39,476 nt of DNA from the NCBI GenBank assembly GCA_005843815.1, contig SZYA01000079.1:1-39476 (forward strand), in the 5' to 3' direction. This DNA comes from Chlorobium sp. Lineage in GTDB: Bacteria > Bacteroidota > Chlorobiia > Chlorobiales > Chlorobiaceae. The notes below the pieces were generated by a model. That model had not been told where the DNA came from and did no database searches. It worked only from the letters and a program-made list of their open reading frames with translations. A program made the translations under genes and the position numbers. This document shows positions 28,673 to 31,943 of the stretch, piece by piece (the stretch's first letter is position 1; the number at the start of each line of letters is the position of its first letter).

Positions 28673-29665
28673 ATGAAAGTACATCTTGATAGAACATCAT
28701 CAGGGTTTTGCATTGGAGTGCAGGGCACCATTAATGTTGCGGAAGAAAAGCTTCAGGAGCTGGGTGGATTATATTCGTTTGGTGATATTGTTCATAACGA
28801 AGTTGAGGTGCATCGACTTGAAGCCATGGGTCTTGTAACGGTGGATGACGAAGGGTTCAAGCAGTTACAGAATACGCATGTTCTGATTCGTGCGCATGGT
28901 GAGCCTCCCGAAACCTACCGTATTGCGCATGAGAACAATGTAACGGTTACCGACACCACCTGCCCCGTTGTCTCCAGATTGCAGCGCACCACCAGATTGC
29001 TGTTTGAGCTGGGTTACCAGATTATCATTTATGGAAAACGAGTGCATCCCGAAGTAATCGGTATTAATGGGCAATGCAAGAATAGCGCTATTATCATTAA
29101 ACATCCTGACCTGAGCGATGCTGCTGAGTTGGAGGGTTTTGATCCTGCAAAAAAAGCGGCGCTTATTTCCCAGACAACCATGGATGTACCGGGTTTTTAT
29201 GAGCTGAAAGCAAATCTGGAAGTTTATGTTGCGCAAGCACTTGGCATAGAAACTGCCCAATGGATGGCAATTCGCGATATTGACATCACCGCTGCCATGA
29301 CCAGCGTTCGCCCTATGCCGGGTTATGTTTTCAAAGACACAATTTGCCGACAGGTCTCCAACCGTAACCAGAAGCTGCACGACTTTGCCCTTGCTAACGA
29401 TGTCATCATTTTTGTGGCAGGAAAAAAGAGCTCGAACGGCCAGGTGCTCTACCATATTTGTAAAGCTGCAAATCCCCGCAGTTTCTTTATTGAAGATATC
29501 GACGATCTTGATGAAAATTGGCTGAACGGCAGCGACGGGAAATCCATCGAAAATGTTGGCGTTTGTGGTGCCACCTCCACGCCGATGTGGCATCTTGAAA
29601 AAGTCGCCCTTTATCTCGAACAGCATGTCGCTCATCCAGACTCCTCACAATCCAGCGAATCGTAA
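28673..29665 (+). CDS. ispH: 4-hydroxy-3-methylbut-2-enyl diphosphate reductase
   Basis: A 330-residue [4Fe-4S] enzyme for the last MEP pathway step, giving IPP and DMAPP. The cluster cysteines are Cys13 (G-F-C-I-G-V), Cys97 (T-T-C-P-V-V) and Cys225 (K-D-T-I-C, then N-R-N-Q). The H-P-E-V-I-G segment carries the catalytic Glu. I chose the ATG at 28673; a longer open frame begins inside murI but adds 25 residues with no homology. No clear Shine-Dalgarno sequence is seen. It is 12 bases upstream of the large flavoprotein gene, so they are probably co-transcribed. ispE of the same pathway is far away in the window. Confidence 0.96.
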
Positions 29666-29677
29666 CGTTTTTTAGTT

Positions 29678-31663
29678 ATGCCAATACATTCCATTTCACT
29701 GACCATTAACCAGCAGGCTGTAACGGCAACACCGGGAACTTCAATTCTTGAAGCCGCAACTGCTGCCGGTATTGTTATTCCGACGCTCTGTTTCAATAAA
29801 TCTCTTGAGGAGACAGGTTCGTGCTGGATGTGCATTGTCGAAATCAAGGGAAAAAATCGCTTTGTGCCCGCATGTGATACACCGGTATCGGAGGGAATGG
29901 TTATCGAAACCGGGAATGAGACGCTTAACGCCATGAGGCGTCAAACTCTTGAGCGAATCGTCGAGGAGCATAGCGGCGATTGCATGGGCCCTTGCGAAAT
30001 CACCTGTCCGGCCGGTTGCGATATTCCCGGTTTTGTTGCGGCAATTGCCAGCAATAACGATGATCGAGCCATAAAGATTATCAAGCAGACGATTCCTCTT
30101 CCCGGTATTCTCGGCAGGGTCTGCCCGGCTCCCTGCGAAGATGAATGCCGGCGACATGGTGTTGACCAACCAGTCTCTATCTGTGCCCTGAAGCGCTATG
30201 CGGCTGACAAGGATTATGGGCAAGCCCACAGATTCATTCCTGAAATTTCTCCAAAAACGGGAAAAAAGGTAGCCATCGTTGGGTCGGGGCCAGCCGGTCT
30301 TACTGCAGCGTGGTTTCTTCTTTGCAATGGGCACGAGGTGACCATAGTTGAAGCGAGTGCGCAGGCTGGCGGGATGATGCGCTACGGTATTCCCCGCTTC
30401 AGGCTACCCGAATCCGTTATCGAGAGCGACATTGCAACGCTGATTGATATGGGGCTTAAGTTTCAGTTCAATACCACGTTCGGTAAGGATGTTACCCTTG
30501 AAACACTTCAGCGCACTTGTGATGCTGTGTTTCTGGCGATTGGTGCGCAAAAGGCGGCCACCATGAATATTCCGGGAGAAGATGAATCCGGAGTGACCAG
30601 CGGCATTGAGTTTCTTCGCAAAGCAGCATCAGGTGATCAGCTTCATCCAGGCAATCAGGTTGTGGTAACCGGCGGCGGCAACACCGCTATTGATGCTGCA
30701 CGGACAGCGATTCGTCTTGGTGCGTCAACGGTTACCATTCTCTATCGCCGATCCAGAAAAGAGATGCCCGCCAACGCTTCCGAAATTCAGGAGGCTCTGG
30801 CAGAAGGCATCACCCTTGTTGAATGGGCGGCACCAACTGCAATCAGGAGCGTGAATGGCGTACTCGAAATAACCGCAATAACCATGCAGCCGGGAGCGGT
30901 CGATGCATCAGGACGGAGAAGGCCAGTGCCGGTCGAAGGGTCGGAGTTCACCATAGCGGCCAACACCATTATCTCGGCTATCGGCCAGCAGATTGACCAC
31001 TCGGTGGCTCATGCAGCGGGCACAGGCACCGGAAAGTACGGCGAACTGCTGGTCAATCCAGCCACCCTGCAATCAGAATCGGTATGGCTGTTTGCCGGGG
31101 GCGATTGTGTTACCGGCACCGATACCGCCATCCGCGCGGTTGAGCAGGGAAAACGTGCGGCGTACGCCATCAATCTTTTTTTATGTGGGGAGAAGGTTGT
31201 TGCTCCGAAAGTTCCCTTTAATTCATCCTACGGTGCCAGAGACGAGGCACCACTGGCCTTTTACCAGCGGAAACAACCTGCGGCCAGAGTTGCTGTGCCA
31301 GAGCTGCCGCCATCAGAGCGCAGTGCGAGCTTCAGTGAAGTGGTCACAGGCTATACAGAAGCTCTGGCCCGCGAAGAGGCGGCGCGATGCCTCCAATGCA
31401 AATGTAATGCCATCAACGACTGCCGTCTTCGGGAACTGGCATCCCGTTATCCGCCCGTTCAGTCCTCACAAAAGCACGAACATCCGGGGTTTTACAAGGC
31501 CGAAAATGCCAACATCTCCATGGAGCGGGAAAAGTGCGTTGACTGTGGTATTTGTGTGCGCATGATCGAAGAGAGCAACGGCAAGGTTGATCTTGTGGTC
31601 ATGACGGAGAGCTGCCCGACCGGGGCACTGTCGGCACCTGCCGGTATGGCGGAGGTGAGATGA
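29678..31663 (+). CDS. Multi-cluster iron-sulfur flavoprotein: 2Fe-2S plus GltD-like NAD(P) oxidoreductase plus 4Fe-4S domains
   Basis: A 661-residue modular redox protein. Residues 1-80 are a NuoG/HoxU-like [2Fe-2S] domain with Cys38, Cys49, Cys52 and Cys66. Residues about 95-175 combine an H-x-x-D-C-like cluster segment (Cys102, 106, 110, 114) with the GltD-type cysteines Cys149, 153 and 157. Next is a GltD-like domain binding FAD (G-S-G-P-A-G at 202-207) and NAD(P)H (G-G-G-N-T-A-I-D near 330-337). The C-terminus adds two cysteine-rich stretches, C-L-Q-C-K-C and C-V-D-C-G-I-C with a later C-P-T-G. It resembles SfrB/NfnB-like electron-transfer proteins, not true glutamate synthase. No partner subunit is adjacent. 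Acceptor and donor are unknown. It is cytoplasmic, with no signal peptide. Confidence 0.85.
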   Translation: MPIHSISLTINQQAVTATPGTSILEAATAAGIVIPTLCFNKSLEETGSCWMCIVEIKGKNRFVPACDTPVSEGMVIETGNETLNAMRRQTLERIVEEHSGDCMGPCEITCPAGCDIPGFVAAIASNNDDRAIKIIKQTIPLPGILGRVCPAPCEDECRRHGVDQPVSICALKRYAADKDYGQAHRFIPEISPKTGKKVAIVGSGPAGLTAAWFLLCNGHEVTIVEASAQAGGMMRYGIPRFRLPESVIESDIATLIDMGLKFQFNTTFGKDVTLETLQRTCDAVFLAIGAQKAATMNIPGEDESGVTSGIEFLRKAASGDQLHPGNQVVVTGGGNTAIDAARTAIRLGASTVTILYRRSRKEMPANASEIQEALAEGITLVEWAAPTAIRSVNGVLEITAITMQPGAVDASGRRRPVPVEGSEFTIAANTIISAIGQQIDHSVAHAAGTGTGKYGELLVNPATLQSESVWLFAGGDCVTGTDTAIRAVEQGKRAAYAINLFLCGEKVVAPKVPFNSSYGARDEAPLAFYQRKQPAARVAVPELPPSERSASFSEVVTGYTEALAREEAARCLQCKCNAINDCRLRELASRYPPVQSSQKHEHPGFYKAENANISMEREKCVDCGICVRMIEESNGKVDLVVMTESCPTGALSAPAGMAEVR

Positions 31664-31667
31664 GGTG

Positions 31668-31943
31668 ATGATGCCTTTTCTTTCCGATACCACCTGGTGG
31701 ATAACGCTGGCTGTGGCGATGGCGGTTGCCACTCTTCCATCTTTGCTGAAATCGCTCAGGATGTTTCTCCTGCTGTTGATAGCTCTGCTGTGGCTTGCGG
31801 CAGTTATTGCCATGGGGGTGAGTGCCGGCTTTGTTGCTGCCCTTGCAGGTGGTGGAGTGTCGCTGCTTTGGGGTTTGCTGCTCACGCTTGCGTCACTGAT
31901 CTCTTCAGGTGTACAGCAGATGGCCAACAGACGTTACAGCTAA
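31668..31943 (+). CDS. Small hydrophobic membrane protein, unrecognised
   Basis: A 91-residue protein with two to three closely packed hydrophobic segments (about 9-24, 28-50 and 52-76: W-I-T-L-A-V-A-M-A-V, L-L-L-L-I-A-L-L-W-L-A, L-W-G-L-L-L-T-L-A-S). It ends in a short basic tail. The start could be GTG at 31665, ATG at 31668 or ATG at 31671; GGAGGTGAG just upstream favours 31668. It begins 4 bases after the flavoprotein stop, so it is probably translationally coupled and may be its membrane anchor. That role is inference only. Confidence 0.6.
   Translation: MMPFLSDTTWWITLAVAMAVATLPSLLKSLRMFLLLLIALLWLAAVIAMGVSAGFVAALAGGGVSLLWGLLLTLASLISSGVQQMANRRYS

Follow-up and report, generated by a model that had tools for sequence, protein, structure and literature searches.

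What does a large iron-sulfur flavoprotein do directly behind ispH in a green sulfur bacterium? The question is raised by the window, that is, the whole stretch of 39,476 nucleotides analysed here (contig SZYA01000079.1, positions 1 to 39,476 of the forward strand, Chlorobium sp. assembly GCA_005843815.1), which is contig 64 of genome G000 in the genome set; "the family" below means Chlorobiaceae. The flavoprotein is probably a dedicated redox partner of IspH, since every loss of its gene goes along with changes at the same few IspH positions. The two genes are:

28673..29665, + strand: ispH, 4-hydroxy-3-methylbut-2-enyl diphosphate reductase, 330 aa (NCBIfam profiles NF002187 and TIGR00216)
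29678..31663, + strand: flavoprotein, 661 aa, ATG start, with a NuoG-like [2Fe-2S] part, a GltD-like FAD/NADP part and C-terminal Fe-S sites (open reading frame, Pfam, NCBIfam and structure matches)

The preliminary description had recognized a single 661-residue frame joining the NuoG-like, GltD-like and C-terminal Fe-S parts, which is borne out by the frame itself, the Pfam and NCBIfam matches and the invariant cysteines, and its spacing of 12 bases between the end of ispH (29665) and the flavoprotein start (29678) is correct. The longer ispH frame from 28598 scored 359.3 bits with NF002187 (cut-off 276) and 194.9 with TIGR00216 (cut-off 187.85), and, judged from relatives, the ATG at 28673 is the likely start.

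With the flavoprotein as a query (E 1e-100), the gene was found in 78 of the 86 genomes of the family. The NCBIfam profile NF009454 scored above its cut-off in 56 of 296 genomes of the phylum (those listed all being Chlorobiaceae) and in none of 14 control genomes. The eight negative genomes fall into two sets. Three of them (G280, G288 and G307, 81-88% complete) have no ispH match either, so this region is probably missing from their assemblies. The remaining five (G028, G083, G090, G102 and G189) are 96-100% complete. The locus is complete apart from the flavoprotein gene in G083, G028, G102 and G090, where ispH is followed by a small frame and an lpxB-like frame (identified by eye) on the opposite strand; in G189 the contig ends shortly 3' of ispH. 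By parsimony on the trees, from which G241 and G304 were left out as holding too little of the gene block, the flavoprotein gene appears to be ancestral to both genera and to have been lost two or three times, once in G083, once in the group G028/G102/G189, and in G090 by an event of its own or jointly with that group. A further GltD-like protein, a 467-aa frame with 42% identity to flavoprotein residues 104-509, lies in the small genome of G189 (G189:C34:8407-9672).

Three places in IspH follow the presence of the flavoprotein gene:

28712..28714, + strand: IspH Ile14, directly after cluster Cys13 (Ile where the flavoprotein gene is present, Phe where it is absent)
29240..29335, + strand: longer segment of IspH leading up to the third cluster cysteine, at about residues 190-221 (almost without counterpart when aligned with Aquifex IspH, 3dnf)
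29273..29290, + strand: RDIDIT, IspH residues 201-206, inside the longer segment; a proposed recognition element, from motif counts

Column 15 of the IspH alignment is the residue behind the first cluster cysteine, whose E. coli counterpart is Cys12 (PMC11218510). It holds Ile in 59/59 gene-bearing genomes of the alignment, and Phe in 5/5 genomes without the gene and in 10/10 outgroups, the latter being ten genomes of the same order outside Chlorobiaceae. A search of the 86 family genomes at the DNA level gave the same picture: the pattern GFC-Phe-GVQ had exactly five matches, which are the five gene-loss genomes, and GFC-Ile-GVQ had 77 matches, all in genomes with the gene. The rule thus holds in 82 of 82 readable genomes, the four unreadable ones being G304 (gene present, contig ending inside ispH) and the three without an ispH match. 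When the Ile pattern was loosened at one end and applied to the 296 genomes of the phylum, 3 of 231 genomes outside the family matched (G230, G175 and G293), and no ispH was found in the 3,021 bases surrounding the match in G230; the match on contig C3 of G028 is not at the ispH of that genome.

The segment before the third cluster cysteine was compared across the same groups. Between two anchors it is 37 residues long in the window, 34-41 in the 59 genomes with the gene, 30-36 in the five without it and 26-27 in the ten outgroups. The motif RD[IV]D[IVLM]T inside it occurs in 59/59, 0/5 and 0/10 of these genomes, respectively; 57 of the 59 fit a stricter form and the other two read LRDIDLT and IRDIDMT. 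At the motif site, G083 has ESAQLK and G090 has KDADIK, and the segment is cut short in G028, G102 and G189.

The coupling is specific to IspH among the proteins compared. Columns that never vary among gene-bearing genomes but differ in each of the three loss lineages amount to 3 of 132 for IspH (columns 15, 202 and 207), compared with 0/461 in S1, 0/83 in Cmk, 0/206 in YchF and 0/115 in MurI, the S1 and Cmk counts including four of the five gene-loss genomes. In a subset of 29 genomes, the values were 3/142 for IspH and 0/283 for IspG, which is likewise an Fe-S reductase of this pathway. Among randomly drawn lineages of gene-bearing genomes, no triple out of 2727 produced such an IspH column. 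Pairing a tip with a clade at random gave one column in 19 of 2867 cases and never more, against three columns for the true losses when these are conservatively counted as two lineages.

The two genes are also tightly linked. The gap between ispH and the flavoprotein gene ranged from -4 to 63 bases (median 17, none above 100) in all 61 genomes measured of the 78 with the gene, and in 17 of these 61 the genes overlap by 4 bases. Upstream, the ychF-murI gap was 5 to 220 bases (n=63) and the murI-ispH gap -26 to 758 (n=64), the gaps to murI and ispH being taken to an early conserved residue rather than to a proven start codon. In a wider set of 103 loci, which is partly redundant with the G genomes (some are counted twice; the 61-genome set holds G genomes only), murI and ispH were up to 1861 bases apart and the ispH-flavoprotein gap stayed at or below 63 bases in 103/103. 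The preliminary description had asked for a conserved order of ispH, flavoprotein and a small membrane protein: its first half stands (61/61), its second half does not (10/66 regions, see below). The order S1-cmk-ychF-murI-ispH is stable across the family. Among ten genomes from three other families of the order, cmk lies near ispH in 7 of 10 loci, neither murI nor the flavoprotein gene was found in the short flanks covered at any of the 10 loci, and NF009454 had no match at 1e-200 in those genomes. Two loci (L046 and L077) have about 1.1 and 1.9 kb between murI and ispH, with ispH and the flavoprotein gene still joined.

A stable block of this kind might carry the flavoprotein gene along by hitchhiking, with an unrelated selection acting on IspH. 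This is very improbable: within the same block murI and ispH lie up to 758 bases apart in the genome set (1861 in the wider one), the ispH-flavoprotein distance never exceeds 63, the neighbouring genes have no covarying column, and random lineages fail to reproduce the covariation.

The history of the Phe residue was followed in IspH trees. After removal of the segment and of column 15, IspH of G083 grouped with G181, G205, G169 and G225 (support 64), and in the species tree G083 stands with G205, G169 and G225 (support 57). Since the masked IspH groups near the species neighbours, the Phe of G083 looks like a reversal and not an import, and a horizontal import of a Phe-type ispH into this genome, considered as a candidate, is unlikely by the masked tree. 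For G090, the masked IspH grouped with G028, G102 and G189 (77), and four other genes placed it with G060 and G075 (100), so that a Phe-type ispH may have been imported there horizontally. The unmasked IspH tree joined G090 and G083 (0.933), a grouping which disappeared after masking. The approximately unbiased (AU) test compared whole topologies and is not informative on the G083 and G090 tips.

Of the three loss lineages, two have a fast-evolving IspH. Its share of tree length was 0.088 in G090, compared with 0.018-0.033 in four neighbours, and 0.054 in G083, compared with 0.021-0.035 in neighbours. Among 33 terminal branches ranked for IspH, G090 was first, G083 third, G028 tenth and G102 thirteenth, the window being ninth. 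The rate analyses covered 60 genomes, with G295, G067, G189 and G248 also left out.

The anatomy of the flavoprotein suggests from where such a partner might have come. The order of Pfam domains is Fer2_4 (5-80), Fer4_20 (102-179) and Pyr_redox_2 (196-491). Residues 4-654 match NF009454 over profile positions 2-654 of 657 with 1124.9 bits (cut-off 916), which places the protein in this family. Invariance was counted in an alignment of 52 sequences, namely the window and 51 of 59 full-length flavoproteins; a second alignment was a selection of six read-through rows, 45 IspH and 46 flavoprotein sequences. The sites are:

29789..29875, + strand: [2Fe-2S] site Cys38, Cys49, Cys52 and Cys66, with Trp50 within the loop (each invariant 52/52)
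29969..30019, + strand: HxxxCxxxCxxxCP (His98 to Pro111) and Cys114 (His98, Cys102, Cys106, Cys110 and Cys114 invariant 52/52)
30122..30193, + strand: Cys149, Cys153, Cys157 and Lys172 (invariant 52/52; Lys172 corresponds to StnC Lys170 by alignment)
30263..31150, + strand: predicted FAD- and NADP(H)-binding Rossmann folds (Pyr_redox_2, 196-491; Arg357 and Arg358 invariant)
31388..31423, + strand: CxxCxCx5C, as C571-x2-C574-x-C576-x5-C582 (invariant 52/52)
31535..31615, + strand: C-terminal [4Fe-4S] motif C620-x2-C623-x2-C626-x19-C646 (invariant 52/52)

Arg357 and Arg358 are presumably a mark of NADP preference. The chain stops 15 residues past the last cluster cysteine, Cys646. Trp50 of the [2Fe-2S] loop is replaced by Gly in StnC and 9bov and by Arg in 9n5u.

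In a sequence search of solved structures, the top matches were 9bov (533 bits, residues 7-636), 9n5u (505) and 8oh5 chain C (471). The AlphaFold model (mean pLDDT 78.5, pTM 0.74) matched best to NfnABC of Caldicellulosiruptor saccharolyticus and Thermococcus sibiricus and to StnABC of Sporomusa, with Z of 46.0-49.9 and an rmsd of 9.1-10.6 over 554-564 residues (model residues 3-583; the match list covers mainly residues 100-541, and the best matches reach 583). Single-module NfnB and GltD chains came next, with Z of at most 40.4 and an rmsd near 2 over about 400 residues. A NuoG-like [2Fe-2S] domain, a GltD-like FAD/NADP module, CxxCxC and C-terminal Fe-S sites thus occur in one chain, with the domain order and Fe-S motifs of StnC (Sporomusa ovata StnABC) and NfnA (NfnABC; PDB 8oh5, 9bov, 9n5u and 9n5v).

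By this anatomy, the protein is predicted to be a StnC/NfnA-type NADPH arm of an electron-bifurcating transhydrogenase without the molybdopterin-like tail. The HxxxCxxxCxxxCP motif has been described for StnC (PMC7483475), and StnC Lys170 is the reported fourth ligand of cluster C7 (PMC10482914). The equivalents of StnC Lys170 and Arg239 are kept in the window as Lys172 and Arg242, both correspondences being counted by hand on the StnC alignment; Arg242 is invariant (52/52) as well. The last cysteine of CxxCxC is spaced by five residues in the window protein and in the StnC alignment row, whereas PMC7483475 prints four. The allocation of cysteines to clusters would follow the StnC sites by analogy.

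The invariant sites also bear on what kind of coupling the covariation reflects, as it shows coupling but not its kind, and one of the changed residues lies beside a cluster cysteine. The flavoprotein might therefore protect, repair or regulate the IspH cluster instead of donating electrons to it. We consider this improbable: the cluster ligands and the checked nucleotide-site residues are invariant in 52/52, as befits an electron carrier, which is hard to explain under protection or repair, and every catalytic cycle of IspH, as of IspG, depends on electrons supplied by a redox protein (PMC11218510).

Despite the StnC/NfnA-type build and the membership in NF009454, the sequence comparison does not support identity as a bifurcating transhydrogenase, because a NuoF-type partner was not found and the FdhF-like tail is missing. 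StnABC and NfnABC have an FdhF-like C-terminal domain and a NuoF-type partner; the window flavoprotein has neither, and ispH adjoins it instead. No molybdopterin family was matched in the Pfam scan of the flavoprotein, and PF01512 (the NuoF/RnfC domain) was absent from 70 of the 81 family genomes scanned. In StnABC, electrons pass from NADPH to FAD and through clusters C7, C6, C5, C4 and C3 of StnC to StnAB, and the FdhF-like tail (C1, C2) lies off this path, although no active complex could be purified without it (PMC10482914). The same source predicts a partial FdhF-like domain in NsoC and T. sibiricus NfnA, so the full tail is not universal among relatives. The preliminary description had noted that no catalytic partner adjoins the flavoprotein. 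The partner probably adjoins it after all, as IspH itself. It had also named a lack of conserved linkage with ispH, or a known complex encoded with other subunits elsewhere, as grounds for abandoning its proposal; the linkage is conserved in Chlorobiaceae, and the search with the NuoF domain found no other subunit of such a complex.

The missing NuoF-type gene gives rise to another explanation, namely that the flavoprotein feeds a complex I without NADH module through its NuoG-like N-terminal domain. The NuoD family PF00346 was indeed found in 76 of the 81 genomes. Its match is kept in all five gene-loss genomes, however, and a role at complex I predicts no covariation with IspH, which makes this explanation highly unlikely.

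In the other 11 of the 81 genomes (G015, G028, G056, G060, G075, G090, G102, G149, G189, G264 and G295), the sole PF01512 match is a 441-aa frame in each. It is read as RnfC from one locus (L090), where it stands beside an RnfB-like frame, and without a family scan. Rnf was considered as an explanation for the gene losses, as this RnfC-like gene occurs in 4 of the 5 genomes without the flavoprotein; it was rejected, because G083 has none, seven genomes with an RnfC-like match keep the flavoprotein, and the events are too few for a judgement. The same distribution matters for the most serious alternative, a general soluble NADPH:ferredoxin oxidoreductase, with IspH drawing on the same electron pool and sharing the operon by chance. 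Proteins of the StnC type relay the electrons of NADPH along Fe-S clusters (PMC10482914), a review reports for green sulfur bacteria a ferredoxin:NAD+ oxidoreductase that is cytoplasmic and independent of sodium (PMC11269200), and the RnfC-like gene is present in two of the three loss lineages. Nevertheless, a shared ferredoxin pool would not make an IspH residue and motif track the gene, IspG, which also needs electrons, has no such column, and the loss lineage G083 lacks an RnfC-like match. Such a general oxidoreductase is therefore unlikely, though less so than the other alternatives.

The flavoprotein was also set against other known relatives and donors. NF009454 (PRK12814) is named "putative NADPH-dependent glutamate synthase small subunit", but the name stands for no tested function, even with a match close to full length. 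GltD is encoded with GltB, and the neighbours of the flavoprotein gene are murI and ispH; G000 has a separate GltD elsewhere, behind a 1537-aa GltB-like frame (GltB by eye). NfnB of NfnAB is encoded with an FNR-like NfnA, and no such gene adjoins the flavoprotein. The DsrL-like protein on G000:C51 is likewise a GltD-like Fe-S flavoprotein (36% identical over 103-583); in contrast to the flavoprotein, no Fer2 domain was found in it, and it sits in an apparent dsr cluster (by eye). Flavodoxin in E. coli and ferredoxin in plants and the apicoplast bring electrons to the [4Fe-4S] cluster of IspG or IspH (PMC11218510, PMC12605070), the kind of role proposed here for the flavoprotein. Unlike these donors, the flavoprotein unites an Fe-S wire and a nucleotide site in a single chain and seems to serve IspH alone. 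We take it to be unrelated to them in sequence.

Elsewhere in G000, contig C59 (L164:4471-7010) has a frame with DHODB_Fe-S_bind followed by a 478-aa GltD-like (NfnB-like) frame, a pair that looks like a complete NfnAB, the canonical bifurcating transhydrogenase, kept beside the orphan arm. In Acetoanaerobium noterae, a long relative of the flavoprotein follows frames of 175 and 576 aa that resemble NuoE and NuoF by eye. A single chain combines Complex1_51K with the GltD-like module in Ess09-15 (L079) and in a Margulisiibacteriota bacterium (L082); in L079 an [FeFe] hydrogenase lies 3' of it, a different fusion among enzymes of the bifurcating type. An apparently similar chain in L083 (WOR-1) is followed by a molybdopterin oxidoreductase.

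Returning to the flavoprotein as a dedicated partner of IspH, the coupling of the two is well supported, and from it we infer direct contact, the direction of electron flow, the use of NADPH over NADH and the cluster order. The earlier proposal of an electron donor for IspH has thereby gained strong indirect support through the tight linkage to ispH and the covariation without exception in 82 genomes, the electron transfer itself being part of this inference. In the proposed mechanism, NADPH would reduce the FAD of the flavoprotein, and electrons would run singly along its Fe-S chain, with sites as in StnC, and exit at the end which is turned towards the NuoF-like subunit in StnABC. IspH would take the place of the NuoF-type partner, its [4Fe-4S] cluster accepting the electrons for the conversion of HMBPP to IPP and DMAPP. 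The adaptation of IspH would consist of the longer segment with RDIDIT, serving docking or recognition, and the change from Phe to Ile beside the cluster cysteine, where Ile14 might tune or open the path to the IspH cluster. In the genomes that lost the gene, IspH again carries Phe and no motif, and its donor is presumably ferredoxin. It is thus fairly likely that an orphaned NADPH arm became a private IspH reductase, and that IspH was rewired to it and rewired back at each loss, the switch of donor being readable from a single residue.

Several observations weigh against this reading. The ispH gene is retained in all five genomes without the flavoprotein, so the donor must be replaceable, and the loss events number only two or three. 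The random-lineage control was lenient, as branch lengths were not matched and the losses sit on long branches. G083 is placed with modest support (57 and 64), and the position of G090 differs between the two trees. The third loss lineage has no excess of IspH change (0.050, compared with 0.030-0.063), and in the three-gene version of the rate analysis the top ratio among 31 belongs to a branch on which the gene is retained (G060, G075). An AlphaFold model of the read-through IspH-flavoprotein, built as one fused chain, reached a pTM of 0.54 and no confident docking, about as expected for two unplaced domains. Finally, reduced ferredoxin should be plentiful in the light, which leaves the need for NADPH unexplained.

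As an IspH donor, the flavoprotein would be new in being single-chain, private and NADPH-linked. No description of an IspH-linked flavoprotein in Chlorobi was found among the listed titles and starts of abstracts in the open-licence literature. A study of IspG and IspH in Zymomonas from 2024 calls their physiological redox partners a knowledge gap and suggests that the partners are species-specific; it gives ferredoxin in plants and flavodoxin in E. coli as donors of IspG, those of Zymomonas being unknown (PMC11218510). With one gene, one enzyme and two sequence sites, the question of the IspH donor becomes testable here, and the species that have lost the gene are natural controls. The locus also suggests that one module of a large bifurcating complex may find new use as a donor made of a single protein, which, if functional outside its host, could serve as a self-contained IspH partner in isoprenoid engineering.

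The remaining feature of the locus follows the flavoprotein gene:

31668..31943, + strand: small hydrophobic protein, a neighbour only and not judged part of the system (in 10/66 regions; no family)

Its ATG at 31668 lies 4 bases past the flavoprotein stop, as had been noted before, and a GTG at 31665 is an alternative start. The protein is hydrophobic over most of its length and had no Pfam or NCBIfam match at E 0.001. It was found in only 10 of 66 regions, of which five are without the flavoprotein and some are cut by contig ends, and is for this reason regarded as a local neighbour; its candidacy as a flavoprotein partner was rejected on the same count, and the membrane-linked oxidoreductase of the preliminary description is not supported. 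Several other genomes have a different small hydrophobic frame, on the opposite strand beside the lpxB-like gene. When the small protein of the window was compared by blastp with three small frames beside the lpxB-like gene, two of them matched with E of 0.010 and 0.22.

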